Origin: Planococcus versutus
Lineage (GTDB): Bacteria > Bacillota > Bacilli > Bacillales_A > Planococcaceae
Assembly: GCF_001186155.3 (NCBI RefSeq)
Contig: NZ_CP016540.2
Location: 1,528,001 to 1,592,000 of the forward strand
DNA: 64,000 nucleotides
Reading direction: 5' to 3'
Numbering within the stretch: the stretch's first letter is position 1; each line of letters begins with the position of its first letter. Positions 15,171 through 58,799 of this stretch are shown here, piece by piece. The notes below the pieces were generated by a model. That model searched no databases and was not told the origin of the DNA. It saw only the letters and a list, made by a program, of their open reading frames with translations. Position numbers and translations under genes: made by a program.

Positions 15171-15219
15171 ATGCATCTTTTGTCTTGTAGGATGTGCTAC
15201 ACTAAAACAAAGTGAATAA

Positions 15220-15392
15220 TCATGCAGAAAAAAGGTGCTGATTCGTCAGCATAACAGGGAACTCGGTTACATTCCGAGGCTGTTTCCGCAACTGTAAGTG
15301 CGTATGAAATAAGAAAACACCACTGTTTAGATTGAACAGCTAAACGGGAAGGTTCTTAAAGTAAATCGATGCACAAGCCAGGAGACCTACCT
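15220..15392 (+). ncRNA. Cobalamin (B12) riboswitch
   Basis: The B12 aptamer is recognisable from CAGGGAACTCGG...CCGAGGCTGTTTCCGCAACTGTAAG, then CACCACTG, GGGAAGG and finally the B12 box AAGCCAGGAGACC at 15375-15387. It lies in the 400-bp leader of the adenosyltransferase-like and BtuF-like genes. A terminator hairpin sits 100 bases downstream, so control is probably by transcription attenuation: cobalamin binding would favour termination and shut the operon down. Confidence 0.93.
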
Positions 15393-15484
15393 TTTTTTGA
15401 ACGTATTTTTACTCTTCGGAAGATAAGGGAATCATACGGCACGTCTCTATTTTTGACTGCTCGAGTATGTCTTTAAATAGTTAT

Positions 15485-47756: not shown

Positions 47757-48104
47757 TTAACAGCAATCTACAGGTACTTCTTTAGCACGCAAATTTTTAA
47801 GGTGTGGATCGGATTCAGCGATACAGCTTAAAATATCCGTTACTAATACAGCGTGAACCGACTCTTTATTCATGGAGTAAAATCGCCACTGTCCTCTTCT
47901 TTTTTCCTTTACAAGCCCCGCTTGCTTTAGCTTACGTAAATGCTGACTAATGGCTGGTTGGCTCATATCAAACATCTCAACAAATTGGCAAACACATAAC
48001 TCATTAGTCTCCACCAACTTCATCATCATTAAGCGAGTGGGATCACTGACGGCTTTTAAACAAGTCGTCACGTCAGCTGCAGATTGTTTCAATACGGTCC
48101 CCAT
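47757..48104 (-). CDS. ArsR/SmtB-family metalloregulator
   Basis: A 115-residue winged-helix repressor. DNA-binding helices MSQPAISQHLRKLKQAGLV, with the alpha-3 metal or metalloid site ELCVCQF (the CVC motif of ArsR/CadC-type sensors) and a C-terminal VDCC that may add ligands. No arsenic resistance gene adjoins it. The nearest candidates are the ABC/redox cluster upstream and the copper region further right. GGAGTGG precedes the ATG. Confidence 0.9.
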   Translation of the reverse strand: MGTVLKQSAADVTTCLKAVSDPTRLMMMKLVETNELCVCQFVEMFDMSQPAISQHLRKLKQAGLVKEKRRGQWRFYSMNKESVHAVLVTDILSCIAESDPHLKNLRAKEVPVDCC

Positions 48105-48279: not shown

Positions 48280-49359
48280 TTATTTATTTTGAATAACCCA
48301 CAAATCTTTCACATCGATCCCAAAACTTATTTCTTGTCCAACAGTGATATGTGATGCTTGTTGGCTATTCAAATTACATTCCAAATAATACTCAGCTGTT
48401 TGTATATTCACTACATAAAAACCATGACTAAATCGTATTTCATTAACTGTTCCACGTAAACAAATTCCGTCTGGTGAAATAACCGATTCCTTCGTTACGA
48501 GTTGGAATGTTTCAGGACGCAGAATTAACTGGCTCTGTCCAGGAGGAGTTGTCGTGTCGATTGAAAAGTTAAACTGCTTTTCAGAACAAATAAATTGTCC
48601 GTTTTCGACAATTCCATTTACGCTATTTTTCAAGCCAAGAAACAAAGCCACTTTTGTTGTTTCGGGGCGCTCGTATAATTCTTTTGCTTTGCCCACTTGC
48701 AATATTTCTCCATCGCTCATTACAGCAATTCGATCAGATAGATAAAAAGCTTCTTCTCGGTCGTGTGTTACAAATAATACTGTAACTTGAAACTCTTGTT
48801 GTATTCGACTTAACAATTCGCGCATTTCTTCGCGTAGGCTCGGATCTAAAGCACTAAAAGGTTCATCCATTAACAACACACTAGGCTGAGTTACAAGAGC
48901 TCGTGCTAATGCTACACGTTGTTGTTGCCCCCCACTTAACACATCTGGAAAACGCGTTCCGTATCCATTAAGTCCAACACGTTCCAACATATCATGGGCT
49001 TTAGCCAAACGGATTTTTTTACTGACTTTTTGCATTTTCAATCCAAATGCAACATTGTCTTCAACGTTCATATGCGGAAATAATAAGGATTGTTGAAACA
49101 CCATCGCAAATTGACGGGTTTCTGCAGGAACTGTCGTTAAATTGCGTTCCCCCATCCAAATTTCTCCATTATCCGGAGCGAGCAAACCGGCAACTAATTT
49201 AAGTAACGTGGTTTTTCCACAACCAGATGGACCGAGAAGAGAAAAGAACTCACCTTCATGAATAGTCAATTTGACAGCTTGTAAAGAAAAGGCTGTATTT
49301 TCATGTTGTTTTGTATAAGGATATTGTTTTTCAATTTGAAGGATTTGCAAATCACTCAT
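48280..49359 (-). CDS. ABC transporter ATPase, YnjD-like with TOBE extension
   Basis: A 359-residue ATPase of the importer class (spermidine/iron/thiamine-like). Walker A GPSGCGKTTL at about 43-52, signature LSGGQQQR near 142, Walker B LLMDEPFSALD and the H-loop VTHDREEA. The last ~110 residues form a TOBE-like regulatory domain, so it is longer than E. coli YnjD (~217). It overlaps the permease gene by ATGA. Last gene of the minus-strand operon that begins with the disulfide oxidoreductase. Confidence 0.9.
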   Translation of the reverse strand: MSDLQILQIEKQYPYTKQHENTAFSLQAVKLTIHEGEFFSLLGPSGCGKTTLLKLVAGLLAPDNGEIWMGERNLTTVPAETRQFAMVFQQSLLFPHMNVEDNVAFGLKMQKVSKKIRLAKAHDMLERVGLNGYGTRFPDVLSGGQQQRVALARALVTQPSVLLMDEPFSALDPSLREEMRELLSRIQQEFQVTVLFVTHDREEAFYLSDRIAVMSDGEILQVGKAKELYERPETTKVALFLGLKNSVNGIVENGQFICSEKQFNFSIDTTTPPGQSQLILRPETFQLVTKESVISPDGICLRGTVNEIRFSHGFYVVNIQTAEYYLECNLNSQQASHITVGQEISFGIDVKDLWVIQNK

Positions 49360-50186
49360 ACTATCACTCCTTTAGCCTTTTTCTGTCGTATTTGTTTACG
49401 GTGATAATAAAGTTTCAGTAAAACATCTAAGCCTACTAAAGACGTAATTGCCATCACAGCAAATAATAATGAATAAGCAGAAGCTACCGCGGGATCGCCA
49501 CCACTTATGAATGGAAATAGCAAAATTGGCAACGTAACGACTTGACCCGAACCAATAATAAACGTGATTAAGTATTGACTCAATGAAATTAAAACGCTTA
49601 AACTAGCCCCTGCTACAATTCCAGGCATCAAATGTGGAAGAACTACTGAGTAAAAACGTGGAATGGCTCCAGCACCAAGCATACGTGCTTGATCTTCCCA
49701 ATCGACTGATAAGGTTTGGTAACTAATCATGACAGCACGTATCACATACGGCAAAGTAGGTGATACATGTGCTAGCACAACTCCTAAAATAGTCTCTGTT
49801 AATCCGAGTCGCAAAAATGTCAAATGGATGCCCATCACAGCAACAAAAGGCGGAATCACAATTGGTGCAAACAAAATCGCTTCCATTAACCATTTGCCAC
49901 GAAAACTAAAACGAACAAGCGCGTGAGCAGCCGGAATGGCTAGTAAAATGTTAATACTAGTAACAAGCAATGCAATTAAAATACTGATTCCTATCGCTTT
50001 CCACGTTCCAGAACTACCGGTTAACACATAGTTCCATGCACGCAAACTAAAAGCTTCAGGTATTATCTGTGGCCACTGCCACCCGAATGAAAAACTAGAT
50101 AAAAGCAAAGGAATAAAAGGCACTGCAAACATCAAGAATACCAATAACAACAACATGCCTTTAACAAAAGAGAGACTTTTCCGCAT
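49356..50186 (-). CDS. ABC transporter permease, second half (YnjC-like)
   Basis: A ~276-residue permease with six membrane helices and the EAA loop (YQTLSVDWEDQARMLGAGAIPRFYSVVLPHLMPG). The start is ATG at 50186, overlapping the stop of the other permease as TGATG, with GGGGTGG upstream. The longer GTG start at 50195 is less likely. With the partner gene it corresponds to the two halves of E. coli YnjC, which is one fused protein. Confidence 0.88.
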   Translation of the reverse strand: MRKSLSFVKGMLLLLVFLMFAVPFIPLLLSSFSFGWQWPQIIPEAFSLRAWNYVLTGSSGTWKAIGISILIALLVTSINILLAIPAAHALVRFSFRGKWLMEAILFAPIVIPPFVAVMGIHLTFLRLGLTETILGVVLAHVSPTLPYVIRAVMISYQTLSVDWEDQARMLGAGAIPRFYSVVLPHLMPGIVAGASLSVLISLSQYLITFIIGSGQVVTLPILLFPFISGGDPAVASAYSLLFAVMAITSLVGLDVLLKLYYHRKQIRQKKAKGVIV

Positions 50187-51070
50187 CAGTTCCACCCCTT
50201 TAATACATTCCAGCGTTTACTAAAAGCATAAACCACTAGACCCAATAACACCATTAAAGCTGCAAGAATAATATTGACTGCAAGTGCTTCAGGACGATCT
50301 GCTACTGTGCCACTTGTATACAATTGATAAGAGTATACTGGCAATGTGCTTGGGTACGTAACACCGAGTAAAAAAGGAACTTCAAAAGCGGAAAATGTAA
50401 AGACAAATACGATGAATGTCGCAATGGTCCAAGCAGGCACTATTGCGGGTAACACAATTTCTTGGACGAAATTCCAATTATTAGCACCGTAAACACGTGC
50501 AACATCACGCCATGAGCGATGAATCCGCGACAACACGGGATAAATCATCAGTGCAATAAAAGGCGCTTCTTTCCAAGCATAAGTAAAAATAATGCCCCAG
50601 CCAAACAAATCATTCACCACAACAGGAAATTCAGCGATGGTCTCAATCCAACCTAAATTTTTGAAAACTCGTGAAACAAAGCCGCTTTGCATAAACAACA
50701 AGACGATAACATATCCGCCCACAAGATGTGGAATCGTTAACGGCAATTGAAACAATCGATTCCAAAAAACAGATACTTCCTTTTTTGTTGTTTCATTTAA
50801 CATAAATAAAGAAATGGCGATTCCTGCACCTAGAATAGCTGCAAAAAGTGATGATAAGGCTGCGATGCGTAACGTTAAAGAAAGTGATGTCCAAAATTCA
50901 GCGGAGCCTAATAAGTTGCTGTACGCTGTGAGTTTAATAGTTGTTTCCCCGAGTGCAGGGAAATAGCCGAGACTTTTTAAAAACCCATCAAAAAGTCCTC
51001 CAAAAAACAGGAGGACGATGGTGCCGATGGCTGGCAACAGCAAAAGATACGGTTTATTCTTTTGCCACAT
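50186..51070 (-). CDS. ABC transporter permease, first half (YnjC-like)
   Basis: A ~294-residue six-helix permease. EAA-type loop RSWRDVARVYGANNWNFVQEIVLPAIVPAW. The ATG at 51070 follows AAAAAGGATGG; an upstream in-frame ATG contains that ribosome site and is not used. It overlaps the binding-protein stop by 17 bp. Forms a heterodimeric channel with the next gene. Confidence 0.88.
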   Translation of the reverse strand: MWQKNKPYLLLLPAIGTIVLLFFGGLFDGFLKSLGYFPALGETTIKLTAYSNLLGSAEFWTSLSLTLRIAALSSLFAAILGAGIAISLFMLNETTKKEVSVFWNRLFQLPLTIPHLVGGYVIVLLFMQSGFVSRVFKNLGWIETIAEFPVVVNDLFGWGIIFTYAWKEAPFIALMIYPVLSRIHRSWRDVARVYGANNWNFVQEIVLPAIVPAWTIATFIVFVFTFSAFEVPFLLGVTYPSTLPVYSYQLYTSGTVADRPEALAVNIILAALMVLLGLVVYAFSKRWNVLKGWN

Positions 51071-52300
51071 GTTGTAACCATCCTTTTTCAATAATTTCGA
51101 TGTAATCTGAAGACAATTCAGGAATGCGATGCGCTTCTAATTCTTCTAGCGACAACGTTGCATCTCCTAAATCCACACCATTCATCGTTTGTTGTTGTTC
51201 AGTCGATAATTTCCCTAAATCCAAAGCCGACAAATCACCCCAGTTTTCTGGTGATAGTTTAGCCGTTTGCGCTTCAGGTGACAGCAATTCATTAATTGCA
51301 ACCATAGCTCCCGCTTTCGCGGTCGAATTAAATGGAATAGACACGAAATGTGTATTGGCTAGTGTCCCTGCATTTAAAACAAAAGTACGAGTGGATTCAG
51401 GGAATCGCCCTTTTAATACTTCGCTTGCTGCTAGAGCTGGATCGTAGCTCATTGTCATACCGATTTCACCACTCGCAAACAATTGGTCTTGTTTGGCCAA
51501 GCTTTCGGGATAAGTTTCTCCTTGGCGCCATAAGTAAGGTTCGATGCTGTTCAAGTATTGCCACATCGGCTCTAAACGCGCTTCCAAATCATCTATTTCA
51601 TTTGCTGGTTTTTGATATTGCTGGTATCCCCCAGTCGTTTCGTATAACACATGACGAACAAATGCACTTCCAGTAAAGTCAGGGAGAGCGGGATACGTAA
51701 ATTGTCCGGGATTCGCTTCTACCCACTGAGCCAGTTCTTCCATCGATTTCGGAGGATTTTTTGACTTGTTTTTATCGTGAACAAACACAAATTGGGCTTT
51801 CCCCAAGGCGCTTCTAAGCCGTCAACAGGTTCACCAAAATCATTGGCAATTTCGGGTGCATCTTGGTCAATAAAATCCACAAAATTCGGCAATTTGTTCG
51901 TAAAGCTTCCCCACAACAATTCATTGTCTTTTGCTACTTTAAAATTTTCTCCATTAATCCAAATGATGTCCATGCTTCCGCTTGTTTTTCCCGCTGCCTT
52001 TTCATCGACTAATTGGTTGACAATGTCTTGCGAATCATTCATCGGTACACGATTCAACTCAAGGTCGTGTTCTTTTTTCAAACGCGGAGCGACCCATTCA
52101 TCCAGATAACGGTTGATGTTGTCGTTGCCACCCCACATATACACATTGACTTCACTGCCTTTAGCCGATTCAGCAATTTTTTGCCAGTCGCTCGACAAAA
52201 GTGTTGCTGAATCGGTGGCTGCTGTATTTTCTACTTGTTGCGAACAAGCAACTAATGTGAAAACTAGTAAACTTGGTATTAGCAATAGACGTTTTTTCAT
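51054..52300 (-). pseudogene. YnjB-like binding lipoprotein, one frameshift
   Basis: ABC-importer binding protein. Lipobox LVAC (Cys19), then VNVYMWGGNDNINRYLDEWV, IIWINGENF, and a C-terminal half from GKAQFVFVHDKNK to KGWLQHVAKE. The pattern follows E. coli YnjB (SMDIIWINGENF; LEAPWGKAQ). The frame breaks once, near 51800 after LEAPWGK, where loss of one base joins two otherwise perfect halves. The restored length is ~415 residues. Probably functional in life if the deletion is a sequencing error. Ligand unknown; thiamine- or metal-binding relatives exist. Confidence 0.85.
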
Positions 52301-52335
52301 TTTTCACTTCCTAACCCCTATTGAGTAACTTACAA

Positions 52336-52994
52336 TCATTTCTCAACTGCTTGTTTTTTGTTCCATCGATTACGTAGAATAATAGGCACTATTGTAAGAA
52401 TAACAAAAACAGCAACAGCAAGAACAATAATTTTTGGGTTTCCACTAACAAAACTACTACCTAAAAAGTTATAGGCAAACGTTCCAGGGATAATACCAAT
52501 CAATGTAGCTAGTGCAAAAGACGAAAAACGTACTTTCGCAAAAGCCGCAACATAACTGATTAAGTCAAAATTAATAACAGGAATAAAGCGAAACAGTAAC
52601 ACGTAAAAAAAACCGTTTTGTTCCATTTGAGATTGAATTTTTTTTACGTTGCCAGTCCACGTTTTGCGAACAAAGCTCTTACCGAGCGTTTTTGCTACAT
52701 AAAAAGACAACATTGCGCCTAGTGTAGCTCCGATAATGGTATAAAGTGTACCAAGCCATGCGCCAAATGCTAACCCCCCGCAATCGACAAAATAGATGCC
52801 GGGAAAAAAATAAGCGGTCGGATTGTGTATATCAACATATAAACGGCTGGTGACCAATAACCAAAAGACAATATCCAGCTACGTAAATCATTGGCATCTA
52901 CTTGAAATACCGAACGACTTAACCAAACGAGAACAACAACAGATATAACAATTATTAGCCACTTAAGCAGCTGGTTTAACTTGATGTTTTTCAT
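52336..52994 (-). pseudogene. TVP38/TMEM64 (VTT) membrane protein, one frameshift
   Basis: A VTT-domain protein. The first frame runs to FFPASILSIAGG (residue ~74) and the second resumes LAFGAWLGTLYTIIGATLGA...RFIPVINFDLISYVAAFAK. They join at a run of six Gs near 52782, where a seventh G restores one 219-residue protein. It starts at 52994, overlapping the oxidoreductase stop by ATGA. Such proteins are also found fused to FAD disulfide oxidoreductases, which fits this coupling. The G-run could be a slippage site or a base-calling error. Confidence 0.85.
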
Positions 52995-54877
52995 GAATTT
53001 ATTCGGTGAGCTGAAATGTTGAAATAACGACTTCTCATTTCGTCATAACGTTGTCGGTTGACGCCCCAATCGGAGTACCCTACACGAGAAGCTGAACGGA
53101 ACTCAATTCGTTGCGCCGCATCGTTAAAGTAAAATTCAATATCGTCTTTAAACCGAAAGCCTTTAGTTGTGAAAACTGCATGAACGTAGTTTTCATCATT
53201 TTGATTGATCTCAACGCCTTCGTATCCTTTTAGCATGCCAATCAAATTCTTTTTGGCTTGTTGTTTCGAGCCATTATATGGCCATGCCGGGACTCGCTTG
53301 TCGGTGTCTTTTGTTTGGGAAGATACAGCATTAGGTGTTGATGGTACTTCTTTCAAACATCCATTTTCAATCCCTAGTTTCGGTTTGAGGTTGTTTTGAA
53401 TCGCTATGTTCGCAATGCCAACACTGGCTACTGCCGCTGCACCATAAATAGCAATTTTTTCTTTTGGAAGTTCTCCGGCTCTTGCTTGATTAAATACTTT
53501 TACGACGGGCTGGTTGAGTAAATTGTCTACGTATACTTTCTTTCCGATTTTCACCAATACTTCACTGTAGGTTGGATAAGGGTGAATGACACCTGACAAT
53601 TTGCCCATATTAATTTTCAGTGATTTGATGGTTTGAATTTGACTAATGATTTCACCAGCACGGTCTCCCAAAATACTCGCACCTAAAATATAGCCTTTTT
53701 TGTCTAAAACAATTTTCACTTTGCCGATGCTGTCTTTTTTTGTATTCGCACGGTCGATATCAGCATAGTCCTGCTCATAGACACGTATCGAATCACCATA
53801 TTTTTTACGTGCTTGTTCTTCGGACATTCCCGATCTGCCAAGTTCTGGATCTGTGTATGTAACCCACGTTACCTGTTCGTAATCCATTTTTTTGTTAATG
53901 GGCAAAATCGCGTTTTGTGCAGCAGTAATGCCTTGTGCATTTGCCATATGAGACAATTGATATGGTCCGACGACATCGCCAATTGCATAGATTCCTTTTG
54001 CAGTTGTTTCCATATGATCATCGACTTGGATACTTTTTGAAGTGTATTCGACGCCTGCTGTTTCCAAGCCATACCCTTTAACATTTGCTTGACGTCCTAG
54101 TGCAACTAAAAGACCTTCACTAGTAACCGTCATTTCAGTGTTGTCTTTTTCTACAATCAAATCAATAGTATGACCTTTTTGTTCTGCTCGTACAGCCGTA
54201 GCACCTGTGTGAATAGTAACTCCTTCATCGATTAGACGTTGTTGAATCATTACCACCAACTCTTTTTCATCATTCGATAAAATACGTTCAGCTTTTTCAA
54301 CAAGCGTCACTTTTACGCCGATACGGTTTAAAGCTTGACTCAGCTCAACACCAATTGGGCCACCGCCAAGAATCGTCATGGTTTTCGGGAAAGAATTTTG
54401 CGTAAAAATGGTTTCATTGGTTAAGTAAGATACTTGGTCTAGTCCTTCAATTGGTGGAACCATTGGCGAAGAGCCGGTTGAGAGAATAATTTTTTTGGCT
54501 TCAATTTTTTCGCCATCTACTTCTAGTGTATGAGGACCCACAAATTTTGCGTAACTATTCATAAAATCAATACCAGCGTTTTGCAGGACTTCAGGCGATT
54601 CACCTGCATATACTTTTTGAATAACTGCTTGAATATCGTTTAACACAACCGACGTGTCTATTTGCAAGTCAGGTGTGTATTTTTTTGCGTGATGCACTTC
54701 TTTGGCAATATTGATCAGCGATTTACTTGGAATACAACCAGACCACGTACACTCGCCTCCGGGTAAGTTTTTATCAATGAGGACGACTTTTTTTGAAAAT
54801 CCTGCTGCTGTAAAAGCAGCAGTGAGTCCAGCTGCTCCAGCTCCTAAAACTACGATATCATATTTTTTTACCATCAT
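52991..54877 (-). CDS. MerA-like FAD disulfide oxidoreductase fused to TM helix and DUF1499
   Basis: A 628-residue protein. Residues ~5-460 are a class I pyridine nucleotide-disulfide oxidoreductase: FAD motif VLGAGAAGLTA, redox pair C-x4-C (GGECTWSGCIPSK, near 45/50), NAD motif ILGGGPIGVELSQAL, and dimerisation end VIHPYPTYSE. There is no HMA domain and no C-terminal Cys-Cys, so it is not a true mercuric reductase. One membrane helix follows near residues 480-500, then DUF1499 (~510-620: CLKEVPSTPNAVSSQ...FRSASRVGYSDWGVNRQRYDEMRSRY). ATG 54877 has an AAAGGAA site. First gene of the operon with the TVP38 protein and ABC importer. Confidence 0.9.
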   Translation of the reverse strand: MMVKKYDIVVLGAGAAGLTAAFTAAGFSKKVVLIDKNLPGGECTWSGCIPSKSLINIAKEVHHAKKYTPDLQIDTSVVLNDIQAVIQKVYAGESPEVLQNAGIDFMNSYAKFVGPHTLEVDGEKIEAKKIILSTGSSPMVPPIEGLDQVSYLTNETIFTQNSFPKTMTILGGGPIGVELSQALNRIGVKVTLVEKAERILSNDEKELVVMIQQRLIDEGVTIHTGATAVRAEQKGHTIDLIVEKDNTEMTVTSEGLLVALGRQANVKGYGLETAGVEYTSKSIQVDDHMETTAKGIYAIGDVVGPYQLSHMANAQGITAAQNAILPINKKMDYEQVTWVTYTDPELGRSGMSEEQARKKYGDSIRVYEQDYADIDRANTKKDSIGKVKIVLDKKGYILGASILGDRAGEIISQIQTIKSLKINMGKLSGVIHPYPTYSEVLVKIGKKVYVDNLLNQPVVKVFNQARAGELPKEKIAIYGAAAVASVGIANIAIQNNLKPKLGIENGCLKEVPSTPNAVSSQTKDTDKRVPAWPYNGSKQQAKKNLIGMLKGYEGVEINQNDENYVHAVFTTKGFRFKDDIEFYFNDAAQRIEFRSASRVGYSDWGVNRQRYDEMRSRYFNISAHRINS

Positions 54878-55038
54878 TACCAATTCCTTTCGTTTGTTGA
54901 ATTATTATTATCTTATCAATAAAGGTGTTATTTTTTCGACTAATCACTCTTAAATACACTGCACCGAGTGAAATTACGGGTTTGATGTGCCATGCTATTA
55001 TATACTAAGTATAGTCTGAAAACGAAAAGGTGAACCCG

Positions 55039-55620
55039 ATGCTTGATACACATGCTAGAAAATACATACAACCTATCGTTGAGAAGTCAGCGGATGCATT
55101 GCTCAAAACGGGTTTTACCGCTAATGGGGTTACAAAAATCGCATTTGCAATCGGCATCACTTCAGGGGTTTTCATTTACTTAAATGAGCCGATGTGGGCA
55201 GTGTTTGCACTATGGTTTTCTGGATATTTAGATGTAGTCGACGGCACGATGGCACGCAAAACAAAGCCTTCTTCTTGGGGAACTTTGCTAGATATCAGTT
55301 TCGACCGTCTTGTCGAGATTAGCGTTGTGTTGGGTTTGGCTTTCCGCTATCCGGACTCAATGTGGGCATTGTTGTTACTCAGTGTTTCCATTATCATTGC
55401 CATGACAATTTTTTTAACAGTTGGCGCTTTGGCAGAAAAACAAGGAGTCAAGTCTTTTTACTACCAAGCAGGATTAGCTGAAAGAACGGAAGGATTTATA
55501 TTGTTTACCCTAATGATTATTTTTTCAACATACTTAACAGTGATTACTTTAATTTTTTTCGCGATTCAGCTATTTACTATCGCGCAGCGTATGACCGAAG
55601 CTAAACGAATACTACAATAG
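55039..55620 (+). CDS. CDP-alcohol phosphatidyltransferase, YnjF-like
   Basis: A ~193-residue membrane enzyme with the full CDP-alcohol motif D-x2-DG-x2-AR-x7-G-x3-D-x3-D (DVVDGTMARKTKPSSWGTLLDISFDR). It transfers a phosphatidyl or related CDP-linked group to an alcohol, making a lipid head group. The pattern matches E. coli YnjF, including the start MLDxHxRxYIxP and SFYYxxGLxExTE. ATG 55039 with AAAAGGTG is preferred over GTG 55030. First gene of the right-hand arm, divergent from the oxidoreductase by 161 bp. Confidence 0.88.
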   Translation: MLDTHARKYIQPIVEKSADALLKTGFTANGVTKIAFAIGITSGVFIYLNEPMWAVFALWFSGYLDVVDGTMARKTKPSSWGTLLDISFDRLVEISVVLGLAFRYPDSMWALLLLSVSIIIAMTIFLTVGALAEKQGVKSFYYQAGLAERTEGFILFTLMIIFSTYLTVITLIFFAIQLFTIAQRMTEAKRILQ

Positions 55621-55636
55621 AAAGGAGTCGTGTGAA

Positions 55637-56728
55637 ATGAAAACACTGATATTAGTTGGTGGTGGTCACGCCCACTTACATTGCCTTGCAGAACTAACAA
55701 CTACACACACAACAAATTGGCAAGTTGTACTCATCTCGCCTTCTCCTTTTCAATATTATTCAGGAATGTTTTCAGGGTATACAGAAGGTGCTTACACACT
55801 CGATGATATTCGAATCGATTTACCAAAACTATGTGAAAAAATCGGCGTTACGTTTGCAGAAGACAGTATACAAATGATAGATGCAGATGCTAAAAAAATA
55901 ACGGGTGTAACTGGTGTCGTCTACCCTTACGATCTTGTGTCTTTTGATATTGGCTCGCGTACAGACATGCCAGAAACAGTTCAAAAATACGCGTCCTCCA
56001 TCAAGCCAAACTTTCGATTTCCAGAGGAATTGGTTCGTTCTCGCGATTCTGCTCATCCCGTCATAGTTGGTGGTGGTGCATCTGGCGTGGAGTTGGCATT
56101 TTCGATATTGTCTTGGAGAAAAAAACACAATCTCCCTGCAAATGTAGCGTTATTTAGTTCGACGCCACTTTTAAGTACTCTTGGTGATCTAGCGTCGAAA
56201 AAAATTGAAGCCATTGCCAGACAAAAAGCATTACCTTTTACATCAAACGTTTCGGTCGATACAATCGATAATGTTACTGTTACAACGAGTCATAAGAAGA
56301 CTTACCCACAATCAGCCGTATTGTGGCTAACGGGGCCTAAAAGTGCAGCGCTGTTCGAACGTTCAGGTTTGTCAACAGATACTGATGGGTTTTTGTTGGT
56401 CAATGAAAAACTACAAAGCCTCCAACACGCTGCTATTTTTGGTGCTGGAGATTGTATCACCATTGATCAATACCCTGCGCTTGCTAAAAATGGAGTATAC
56501 GCTGTTCGACAAGGTCCTATCCTTTGGGAAAATTTAAAAAAGAGCTTAAGTAAAGGTGAATTGGTCAGATTTACACCGCAAAAAAGATTTGTTTCAATTC
56601 TTTCGACAGGTGATGGCGAAGCATTTCTCTCTTATGGTAACCATCTTTTCCACGGCAAGTGGCCCTGGAAAATAAAACAATACATTGATAAAAAGTTTAT
56701 GAAGCGGTTTAAAACTATATATGAATAA
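55637..56728 (+). CDS. FAD-dependent oxidoreductase, SelD-N-terminal-fusion type
   Basis: A 363-residue NDH-2/SQR-like flavoprotein. FAD motif LVGGGHAHLHCL at the N-terminus, PFQYYSGMFSGYTEG, second nucleotide motif VIVGGGASGVELAF and the final FAD-binding FGAGDCITIDQYPALAKNGVYAVRQGP. This matches the group found fused to the N-terminus of SelD (selenide, water dikinase) in cyanobacteria and others (TIGR03169-type). No SelD domain is attached here. AAAGGAG precedes the ATG, 16 bp after the phosphatidyltransferase. Donor and acceptor unknown; sulfide, selenide and quinone are candidates. Confidence 0.88.
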   Translation: MKTLILVGGGHAHLHCLAELTTTHTTNWQVVLISPSPFQYYSGMFSGYTEGAYTLDDIRIDLPKLCEKIGVTFAEDSIQMIDADAKKITGVTGVVYPYDLVSFDIGSRTDMPETVQKYASSIKPNFRFPEELVRSRDSAHPVIVGGGASGVELAFSILSWRKKHNLPANVALFSSTPLLSTLGDLASKKIEAIARQKALPFTSNVSVDTIDNVTVTTSHKKTYPQSAVLWLTGPKSAALFERSGLSTDTDGFLLVNEKLQSLQHAAIFGAGDCITIDQYPALAKNGVYAVRQGPILWENLKKSLSKGELVRFTPQKRFVSILSTGDGEAFLSYGNHLFHGKWPWKIKQYIDKKFMKRFKTIYE

Positions 56729-56792: not shown

Positions 56793-58799
56793 TTAAGCTT
56801 TTAACAGTTTCGCATTAATAGCCACAATGATCGTACTTAAACTCATGAGAACCGCACCGATGGCGGGACTGACGATAATACCCCAAGGAGCTAACACACC
56901 TGCAGCTAACGGAATAGCAAAGATATTGTATCCAGATGCCCACCATAAATTTTGTATCATTTTCCGGTATGTTTTTTTGGATAAATCGATCAACGTAACG
57001 ACATCATGAGGATTGCTTTTGACCAATATGACATCTGCTGTTTCCATCGCAACATCCGTACCCGCTCCAATGGCAATTCCAAGGTTTGCCGTTGCGAGAG
57101 CGGGTGCGTCATTGACACCATCTCCCGTCATCGCTACTTTCCATCCTTTATCTTTAATTTTTTTAATTTGATTGGCTTTATCGTCTGGCAAAACTTCCGC
57201 GTATACTTCGTCGATGCCAACTTGTTTTGCTACCCAATCTGCCACTTTCTTATTGTCACCTGTGAGCATAATAGGATGAATGCCTTGCTCTTTTAAAACT
57301 GCAATAGCTTCTTTCGCAGTTTCACGAACAATGTCAGCAAGCGCCACCATACCAATCAATTGATCTTCCATTAACACAAATACAACCGTTTTTCCTTCTT
57401 CTGAGAGCTCGTTAAAATGGTCTGTATCATAACTAAGATTTTGATCATTGACATAACCTGGACTGACTACATTAATTTTCACACTTTCAACTTGGCCTTG
57501 AATTCCTTTTCCAGCAATCGATTCAAAATTTGTCACTTGTTTTAGTTTAAGTCCTCGCTCTTTTGCAGAATTCACAACACCTGTTGCAATAGGGTGCTCT
57601 GAATTTTGTTCAATAGCCGCCGCAAACTGCAGCACTTCGTCTTTTGTATACTCACCACTTGGTACGATGTTAGTCACACCAAATTCTCCTTTTGTTAATG
57701 TCCCTGTCTTATCAAAAACAATCGCATTTAAATTTCGTGCATATTCGAAACCGACACGATTGCGAATTAACAATCCGTTTTTAGCTGCAATCGAAGTTGA
57801 AACGGCTACAACAAGCGGTGCAGCTAGTCCTAACGCATGCGGGCAAGTAATAACCATAACTGTTACCATACGCTCTACTGCAGTGTCTACAGAGTAACCA
57901 AGTAACATCCAAACGGTAAACGTAACTAGACCTGCGACTATAGCTACGTAAAATAGCCATTTCGCTGCACGATTGGTTAAATCTTGTGTTCTTGATTTTG
58001 ATTCTTGTGCTTCTTTTACCATTTTAACTACTTGAGATAAATAAGATGCATCTCCTGTTTTCTCTACTTCTACTACTAAAGAACCTTCTTTATTCACCGA
58101 ACCACCAATTACTTGATCGCCTTCGTCTTTATCGATCGGCAGCGATTCACCCGTTAACATGGATTCGTCAATCGTTGATTTCCCTTCAATAATTAGTCCA
58201 TCTACAGGGATTTTTTCACCCGGCTTCACGAGCAACCGATCTTGGTTTTGAATTTCAGCTAATGGCACATCTTGAACTTCGTTATTTTCATCTAGTTTAT
58301 GTGCTTCGCTTGGCATGAGTTGAATCAACTCTTCTAGAGCATTAGAAGCGCCCATGATAGAACGCATTTCAATCCAGTGCCCAAGCAACATAATAACAAC
58401 TAGCGTGGCAAGCTCCCAATACAATTGATTGCCATTCCATCCAAACACCACCATGGTGCTATAACCGTAAGCAATCGTAATTGCTAAGGCAATCAACATC
58501 ATCATGCCGGGATTTTTTTCTTTTAACTCGCGAATCCCACCCGTTAAGAAAGGCCAGCCTCCGTAAAAGAAAACAACGGTTGATAACACAAATAAGACAT
58601 ACAGATCATTGTCAAAACGCCAGTCTACACCTAAAAACATTTGAATCATAGGAGATAATGCCAATATCGGAAGCATTAAAATTAAGGATACAAAAAAGCG
58701 CTTTTTAAAGTCTTCTACCATATTATCGTGTCCGCCATGTCCTTGATGATCGTGCTTTGAATGTTTTTCATGATCATGGTGCATTTCATCTGAACTCAT
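56793..58799 (-). CDS. copB: Copper-exporting P-type ATPase, CopB type
   Basis: A 668-residue heavy-metal P-type ATPase. His-rich N-terminus (residues 6-24) in place of CxxC HMA domains, membrane metal site CPH at 319-321 (ITCPHALG), phosphorylation Asp363 in [13 protein letters not shown] near 216, and HP at the SEHPIA motif. The CPH motif and His-rich tail define the P1B-3 CopB group, which exports Cu(I)/Cu(II) or Ag(I). AAAGGAGAGG precedes the ATG, with a 19-residue leader ORF just upstream. Confidence 0.95.

Follow-up and report, generated by a model that had tools for sequence, protein, structure and literature searches.

The YnjBCD importer and the phosphatidyltransferase YnjF as partners in Bacilli and Proteobacteria: a possible phospholipid-forming module in Planococcus versutus

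Background

Are the importer genes ynjBCD and the phosphatidyltransferase gene ynjF of Escherichia coli K-12 chance neighbours, or are they parts of one system that is also found in Gram-positive bacteria? The question is raised by a locus of Planococcus versutus located at positions 48,280-56,728 of a 64,000-nt window (the whole stretch of DNA analysed, positions 1,528,001 to 1,592,000 of contig NZ_CP016540.2) in a host genome of 3.33 Mb. A preliminary description of this locus had called it a Gram-positive counterpart of E. coli ydjXYZ-ynjABCDEF. This holds, since YnjB, YnjC, YnjD, YnjF and a VTT protein are all found together. We observed that YnjB and YnjF are paired across two phyla in a near-obligate manner. 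Our preferred reading, which we regard as plausible though short of probable, is that the locus represents the version found in Bacilli of a module that crosses phyla, in which the YnjBCD importer and YnjF, with the VTT protein and flavoproteins, would make a phospholipid.

Gene content of the locus

The eight genes are arranged in two divergent groups. The MerA-like/DUF1499 flavoprotein, VTT, YnjB, YnjC1, YnjC2 and YnjD genes follow each other in this order on the minus strand, and the YnjF and NDH-2-like flavoprotein genes lie on the plus strand. The features are the following (ABC, ATP-binding cassette; ORF, open reading frame):

48280..49359, minus strand: YnjD-type ABC ATPase, 359 aa (PF00005, 125.8 bits); ATGA overlap with the YnjC2 gene
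49356..50186, minus strand: YnjC2 permease (PF00528, 45.3 bits); ATG at 50186, longest ORF to 50195
50186..51070, minus strand: YnjC1 permease (PF00528, 46.6 bits); ATG at 51070, longest ORF to 51091
51054..51806, minus strand: substrate-binding protein YnjB, C-terminal piece (NF008633, 310.7 bits, profile positions 153-395)
51719..52300, minus strand: YnjB, N-terminal piece (NF008633, 195 bits, profile positions 19-161), in a frame different from that of the C-terminal piece
52336..52994, minus strand: VTT/DedA protein of YdjX/YdjZ-like type (PF09335, 95.4 bits); ATGA overlap with the MerA-like flavoprotein gene
52991..54874, minus strand: MerA/lipoamide-dehydrogenase-like flavoprotein with C-terminal DUF1499 (PF07992, 210 bits; PF02852, 86 bits; DUF1499, 108 bits); start ATG at 54874, longest ORF to 54883
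54875..55038, no strand: divergent promoter region, with a -10-like TATACT and AAGGTGA in aligned relatives
55039..55620, plus strand: YnjF-type CDP-alcohol phosphatidyltransferase, 193 aa (PF01066, 40.5 bits); best match E. coli YnjF
55637..56728, plus strand: NDH-2/FSP1-like oxidoreductase related to TIGR03169, here called SelDN (275.5 bits, cut-off 310)

Profile searches and matches to E. coli proteins confirm the gene set initially read from the sequence: YnjB, a split YnjC, YnjD, a VTT protein, YnjF and two flavoproteins. YnjD and its E. coli namesake share 37% identity over 209 aa. YnjC1 and YnjC2 correspond to the N-terminal and C-terminal halves of E. coli YnjC (blastp to YnjC 85-235, E 8e-8, and to YnjC 360-483, E 9e-5). 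ATGA couplings had also been described; they are present at the MerA-like/VTT and YnjC2/YnjD junctions, and the YnjC1/YnjC2 overlap is TGATG instead. The VTT protein matches E. coli YdjZ (68 bits) and YdjX (66 bits), and it does not qualify as UptA (NF052604, 23.3 bits with the C-terminal piece only, cut-off 250). The assignments of YnjB and YnjF withstand profile searches. With an NF008633 cut-off of 203 bits, the C-terminal piece of YnjB alone lies above and the N-terminal piece alone below, and the latter carries a lipobox-like VACS, a motif recognized by eye. Window and E. coli YnjF match each other over 193 aa (75-84 bits); E. coli PgsA and two CDP-alcohol paralogues of the host genome reach at most 28 bits against YnjF.

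In E. coli K-12 ydjX, ydjY, ydjZ, ynjA, ynjB, ynjC, ynjD and ynjE lie on one strand and ynjF on the other, in convergent orientation. Both loci contain YnjB, YnjC (two halves), YnjD, VTT and a YnjF encoded opposite to the importer. In the window, however, YnjF is divergent, YnjC is made of two genes, and ynjB and the VTT gene are frameshifted; YdjY, YnjA and YnjE are absent and the MerA-like/DUF1499 and NDH-2-like flavoproteins are present instead. Among 17 loci from the genus of the window, none has YdjY, YnjA or YnjE at 7.5 kb or less from YnjB, the profiles of YnjA and YnjE being built on one sequence.

Pairing of YnjB and YnjF in Bacilli

The distribution of the two proteins was analyzed in 398 genomes of the window's class (its name, Bacilli, deduced from named congeners), YnjB being counted above the NF008633 cut-off. 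YnjB is present in 65 genomes and the YnjF subfamily in 67. All 65 YnjB genomes contain YnjF, within 8 kb of YnjB in 64 cases and on separate contigs in the last one (G376). The two YnjF genomes devoid of YnjB are G289, where YnjF lies beside VTT, and G069, where it is broken. Our association tests count genomes as independent, which inflates p values, and values for this class are given at the genus level: YnjF is present in 18/18 YnjB genera (p = 4.6e-21). The co-occurrence in 65/65 genomes is beyond chance, a check that the preliminary description had itself set, and a functional association of the module genes is strongly supported.

Apart from the window, 40 of the 65 YnjB genomes supplied neighbourhoods, with every one of the 18 genera represented. 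In the 49 neighbourhoods fetched from these genera, the partners found close to YnjB are YnjF (17 genera), VTT (13), the MerA-like protein (9), YdjY (6) and a SelDN-type protein (5); YnjA and YnjE (one-sequence profiles) in 0/18. LPG_synthase_TM occurs near YnjB in 2/18 genera, which we count in favour of lipid synthesis. Five loci of paralogous substrate-binding proteins scoring below the cut-off (L097-L101) served as controls, and YnjF, VTT, MerA or SelDN did not exceed the threshold in any of them. SelDN was scored on the four best candidates of each genome: TIGR03169-like proteins above 200 bits (next matches at most 143) were found in 38 genomes, every one of which has YnjB; in 16 the distance to YnjB is at most 10 kb, and in 22 the gene lies elsewhere.

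Two variants of the locus were observed in this class. In genus g50 (L078, L079, L093) a fusion of both YnjC halves gives a single protein of 551-553 aa, an arrangement shared with E. coli. In family f16 (L080, 4958-8305; L083, 5028-8346) genes for an aldehyde dehydrogenase, a metallo-beta-lactamase-fold protein and a short-chain dehydrogenase directly precede ynjB (named by Pfam in L080, by similar lengths and starts in L083); this set of genes is a possible hint at alcohol chemistry.

Pairing in Proteobacteria

The preliminary description had also proposed that these parts are associated in distant phyla. This is borne out in Bacilli and in Proteobacteria (Rhizobium, Vibrio-type genomes, E. 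coli), with different gene orders. The proteobacterial loci are the best 80 of at least 556, among which the 61 with full flanks were used for neighbour counts and the 19 with short flanks left out. YnjF lies near YnjB in 46 of the 61, VTT in 28, YnjE in 14, the MerA-like protein in 11 and SelDN in 3. Where YnjF is not nearby it was found elsewhere in the genome in 18/18 cases (E 1e-53 to 1e-77; next paralogues about 1e-12), namely all 15 full-flank loci and 3 of the 15 short-flank loci without nearby YnjF. In L119 the distant YnjF adjoins a second YnjBCD copy, and in Aliivibrio L173 and L177 it lies beside YnjC and YnjD, YnjB being apart. A similar disposition was noted in Aliivibrio L211 and L215, where YnjC, YnjD, YnjF and VTT are together, apart from YnjB.

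The same families recur in varied orders. Rhizobium L128 and L132 contain MerA, YnjF, VTT, YnjBCD (single-gene YnjC) and SelDN, that is, the Planococcus families in a different order, and a Photobacterium locus contains YnjA, a MerA-VTT fusion, YnjBCD and YnjF. Fusions also join the two partners themselves. In two metagenomic proteins, P0203 and P0204 (587 and 591 aa), a complete YnjF is joined to YnjB at the signal peptide; because they are alike, they may represent one event. In Enterovibrio coralii L165, YnjD is joined in frame to YnjF, the two being separate in the related L154. A YnjF-YnjB fusion in G026 (L034) was set aside, as a 98% identical unfused protein (P0121) exists, so that a recent deletion or a faulty assembly may have produced the fusion.

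In a sample of 274 genomes of the gammaproteobacterial class (class name deduced from named loci), YnjF is present in 9/9 YnjB genomes (p = 8e-12). Strong YnjF matches (>140 bits) number 20 in this sample, and 11 of them come from genomes without YnjB. A VTT-MerA-YnjF row is present in 3 of these 11 genomes and a MerA-YnjF pair in 1:

L219, 3494-6778; L220, 5499-8217; L223, 5808-8547; L224, 3929-5925: importer-free VTT-MerA-YnjF or MerA-YnjF clusters

These clusters, together with the VTT-YnjF arrangement of G289 and with Hydrogenophaga flava, where YnjF-MerA/VTT-SelDN stands apart from YnjBCD, suggest an alternative: the VTT-MerA-YnjF trio would be the core, making a redox-partnered lipid from internal substrates, and YnjBCD a salvage add-on. 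We consider it unlikely, given that in the window's class only 2 of the 67 YnjF genomes lack YnjB (one of the two with a broken YnjF gene), that VTT and MerA are often missing nearby, and that neither VTT nor MerA adjoins YnjF in 7 of the 11 genomes without YnjB.

Catalytic motif and acceptor site of YnjF

The motif D-x2-DG-x2-AR-x(n)-G-x3-D-x3-D is intact in the window YnjF and in 97 others, except for one with G in place of the first D. Column counts were made after fused, very long or low-scoring ORFs had been left out; K141, E151 and E154 are kept in 97/97 sequences and R187 in 96/97, with one gap. By sequence, the nearest solved relatives are the phosphatidylinositol-phosphate synthases 6h5a and 6h53. 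In these enzymes the phosphate of inositol phosphate is held by Arg155 and Arg195 (PMC6506517, PMC4634129). Mapping by eye on the alignment with solved relatives, we found that the Arg195 equivalent is kept in 96 YnjF sequences, with one gap, and that the Arg155 equivalent is Gly, Cys or Thr in 97/97. Inositol phosphate is therefore an unlikely acceptor and was rejected as the head group; the acceptor may be a non-phosphorylated alcohol. YnjF thus shares with phosphatidylinositol-phosphate (NF045883) and archaetidylinositol-phosphate (NF040950) synthases the catalytic motif and the Arg195 equivalent. It differs from them by its scores, which for the window protein are 72 and 89 bits (cut-offs 170 and 180) and exclude it from the former family, by the loss of the Arg155 equivalent, and by the Arg94 equivalent, missing in 51/51 proteobacterial YnjF.

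The binding protein and the thiamine annotation

No solved chain matched YnjB by sequence at E 1e-5. Its structural model (pLDDT 93.4) is confidently that of a type II ABC substrate-binding protein. With this model, Foldseek returned Salmonella STM0429 first, and VIA-align placed sugar binders first, the glycerophosphocholine-binding UgpB being about 2 Z units lower. Naming the ligand from structure was abandoned: many binding proteins are nearly tied on the model, so that no ligand can be named.

A database annotation, quoted in PMC9184624, presents YnjBCD as a thiamine (or sulfate/thiosulfate) importer, in which case YnjF would be an unrelated neighbour. It could find an echo in the thiamine-binding protein 2qry, among the Foldseek matches of the YnjB model, and in two loci, L182 (8595-12738) and L187 (5236-9385), where a SelDN gene follows a thiamine pyrophosphate (TPP) riboswitch and a CbiQ/ABC_cobalt-type energy-coupling factor (ECF) transporter. 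Control by a TPP riboswitch is frequent among thiamine importers, though not defining. Such a riboswitch lies within 10 kb of YnjB in 0/19 genomes, and Rfam scans of the window and of 17 YnjB loci revealed none near YnjB. Moreover, an unrelated neighbour cannot account for the co-occurrence in 65/65 genomes, for the presence of YnjF in 18/18 cases when unlinked, or for the fusions, and we regard the annotation as very unlikely to describe the function. In a third genome of the genus of L182 and L187 (L186), SelDN does not follow a TPP riboswitch and ECF transporter.

Flavoproteins, VTT and the selenium hypothesis

The redox CxxxxC of the MerA-like protein is kept in 44/44 aligned relatives. 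Mercuric reductase MerA has C-terminal vicinal cysteines. The window protein contains no CC pair, ends in DUF1499 and scores 349 bits in TIGR02053 (cut-off 454); it does not qualify as a mercuric reductase. As to SelDN, its nearest solved chains by sequence are NDH-2, FSP1 and SQR, and no conserved redox Cys pair was found in 29 sequences. TIGR03169 describes the N-terminal domain of SelD fusions, and the SelDN of Rhizobium L128 (356.7 bits) exceeds its cut-off; the window SelDN, below the cut-off, differs by being stand-alone and by showing no SelD dependence.

A chalcogen link through this SelD-type flavoprotein had been suggested, SelDN and its partners handling selenium or sulfur. Beside the kinship with the SelD-fused domain and the restriction of SelDN to YnjB genomes (38/38), several observations are consistent with it. 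The host encodes SelD (G000:C1:817266-818195, with one in-frame TGA, a probable selenocysteine) and SelU (C1:3188579-3189466), the E. coli locus has the sulfurtransferase YnjE, a genetic interaction map groups ynjABCDEFI with Suf genes (PMC3930520), and a link between DedA and selenite is in the title of a paper cited by PMC10127716. The distribution of SelD does not support the selenium link: SelD over its cut-off is absent in 29 of the 38 SelDN genomes, and it is present in 9/38 genomes with SelDN versus 7/27 without (Fisher p = 1.0). YnjE, for its part, is near YnjB in only 14/61 proteobacterial loci and in 0/18 Bacilli genera (with a one-sequence profile of limited reach), and the lack of a conserved Cys pair in SelDN argues in the same direction. 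A chalcogen pathway thus appears highly improbable.

COG0398 DedA proteins are discussed as putative flippases or scramblases of phospholipids, and when fused they are most often joined to pyridine-nucleotide-disulfide oxidoreductase domains (PMC10127716). The module contains the same two domains, fused in Photobacterium and in some betaproteobacterial loci; in the window they are separate genes, and the passages of PMC10127716 on such fusions name neither YnjF nor YnjBCD.

State of the module in this strain

Among 17 congeners (Planococcus/Planomicrobium), 13 have YnjB, at 505-531 bits in NF008633, and all 13 share the eight genes and their layout. The gene content of the two operons was well described by the preliminary description, which overlooked the frameshifts of ynjB and of the VTT gene. 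Compared with the congener G149, ynjB is divided between 51719-52300 and 51054-51806, which overlap but are read in different frames, and a second frame change lies in the VTT gene, within 52755-52809, a stretch with a run of C. These are the only two genes with a frame change among 45 G149 ORFs matched in the window. Sequencing errors at two short homopolymer runs could be the source of both changes; against such assembly noise stand the 43/45 comparable ORFs without frame change and a chance of 0.028 that both errors fall in the eight-gene locus. In one of the 13 YnjB congeners (L028) ynjB is interrupted by a stop and a flavoprotein gene is broken. With the frameshifts observed here, this broken copy indicates that the module, ordinary for the genus, is yet dispensable and decaying in some strains. 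The two frameshifted genes make it probable that the module does not work in this strain.

In the divergent promoter region a -10-like TATACT recurs in 17/21 aligned regions. The start of YnjF is probably ATG 55039 and not GTG 55030, because this ATG is kept in 21/21 aligned upstream regions and preceded by AAGGTGA in 18/21. An operator palindrome in the window promoter was rejected as unconserved, TATACT alone recurring. On either side of the locus lie a gene for an ArsR-type regulator (47757-48104), which is not next to it in every congener, and one for a copper-type P-type ATPase (56793-58799). Elsewhere in the window lies a cobalamin riboswitch (15215-15408, 109 bits).

Proposed function

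In the preferred reading, which has YnjBCD feed YnjF, an extracellular alcohol, small and polar, would be captured by the lipoprotein YnjB and imported by YnjCD. YnjF, with an active site presumed to face the cytosol as in its solved relatives, would condense this alcohol with CDP-diacylglycerol into a minor phospholipid, which the VTT/DedA protein would move between leaflets. The MerA-like flavoprotein, of disulfide-reductase type and fused to VTT in some Proteobacteria, and the NDH-2-like one where present, may carry out redox reactions on the substrate, on the lipid itself or on a carrier in the membrane. The pairing of YnjB and YnjF is shown; the reaction of YnjF, its donor and direction, which alcohol is used, and what VTT and the flavoproteins do are inferred.

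Several observations weigh against this scheme. VTT, MerA and SelDN are not universal near YnjB (13, 9 and 5 of 18 genera), and the E. coli locus lacks both MerA and SelDN. No sought partner lies near YnjB in 13 of the 61 full-flank proteobacterial loci, 3 of which are without even YnjC and YnjD. The YnjF genes of the 11 YnjB-less genomes mean that the importer is not indispensable, and for 7 of them VTT and MerA are missing as well. The best structural matches of the YnjB model bind unlike ligands. YnjF positions 93/152 are R/R in 46 Bacilli and F or M/G or A in 51 Proteobacteria, so that acceptors may differ between the phyla. Finally, the E. coli operon is activated by FNR, that is, anaerobically (PMC3688515), whereas COG0398 is said to be tied to aerobic metabolism (PMC10127716).

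Published observations on E. coli suggest another alternative, linked to membrane remodelling or envelope stress: the lipid made by YnjF would alter the membrane, and the transporter would handle cationic amphiphiles rather than feed YnjF. BaeR overexpression weakly induces ynjA (1.6 fold) and ynjB (1.4 fold; PMC2731931). The ynjC mutation P213S adds to fitness when colistin is present, which also counts for the preferred reading, and deletion of ynjC is cited as reducing the uptake of one cationic dye out of two (PMC9184624, according to which the YnjC substrate was never directly studied). On the other side, expression of ydjXYZ-ynjABCD (Table 1, category 1) and of ynjE is directly activated by the oxygen-response regulator FNR (PMC3688515), and the strict pairing of binding protein and transferase would fit substrate feeding better. 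On balance this alternative seems improbable. In Marinobacter, an "uncharacterized" YnjBCD is enriched in clade III (PMC9207381); the open-licence PMC literature yielded no paper linking YnjBCD to YnjF among the matches listed.

Conclusion

In its most complete form, which we hold to be doubtful, the preferred reading amounts to a new phospholipid pathway: YnjBCD would import a non-phosphorylated alcohol, YnjF would make from it a lipid absent from known lipidomes, a DedA protein would translocate this lipid, which would be redox-active, and a membrane-bound flavoprotein of disulfide-reductase type would keep it reduced. If true, such a pathway would span Planococcus, Rhizobium, Vibrio and E. 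coli. Both belong to the uncharacterised part of E. coli K-12, YnjBCD among its transport genes and YnjF among its lipid genes; their pairing joins them into one testable prediction, namely that the ligand of YnjB, or its product, would be the head group of a YnjF-dependent lipid. The pairing also gives a context for the DedA-flavoprotein fusions.

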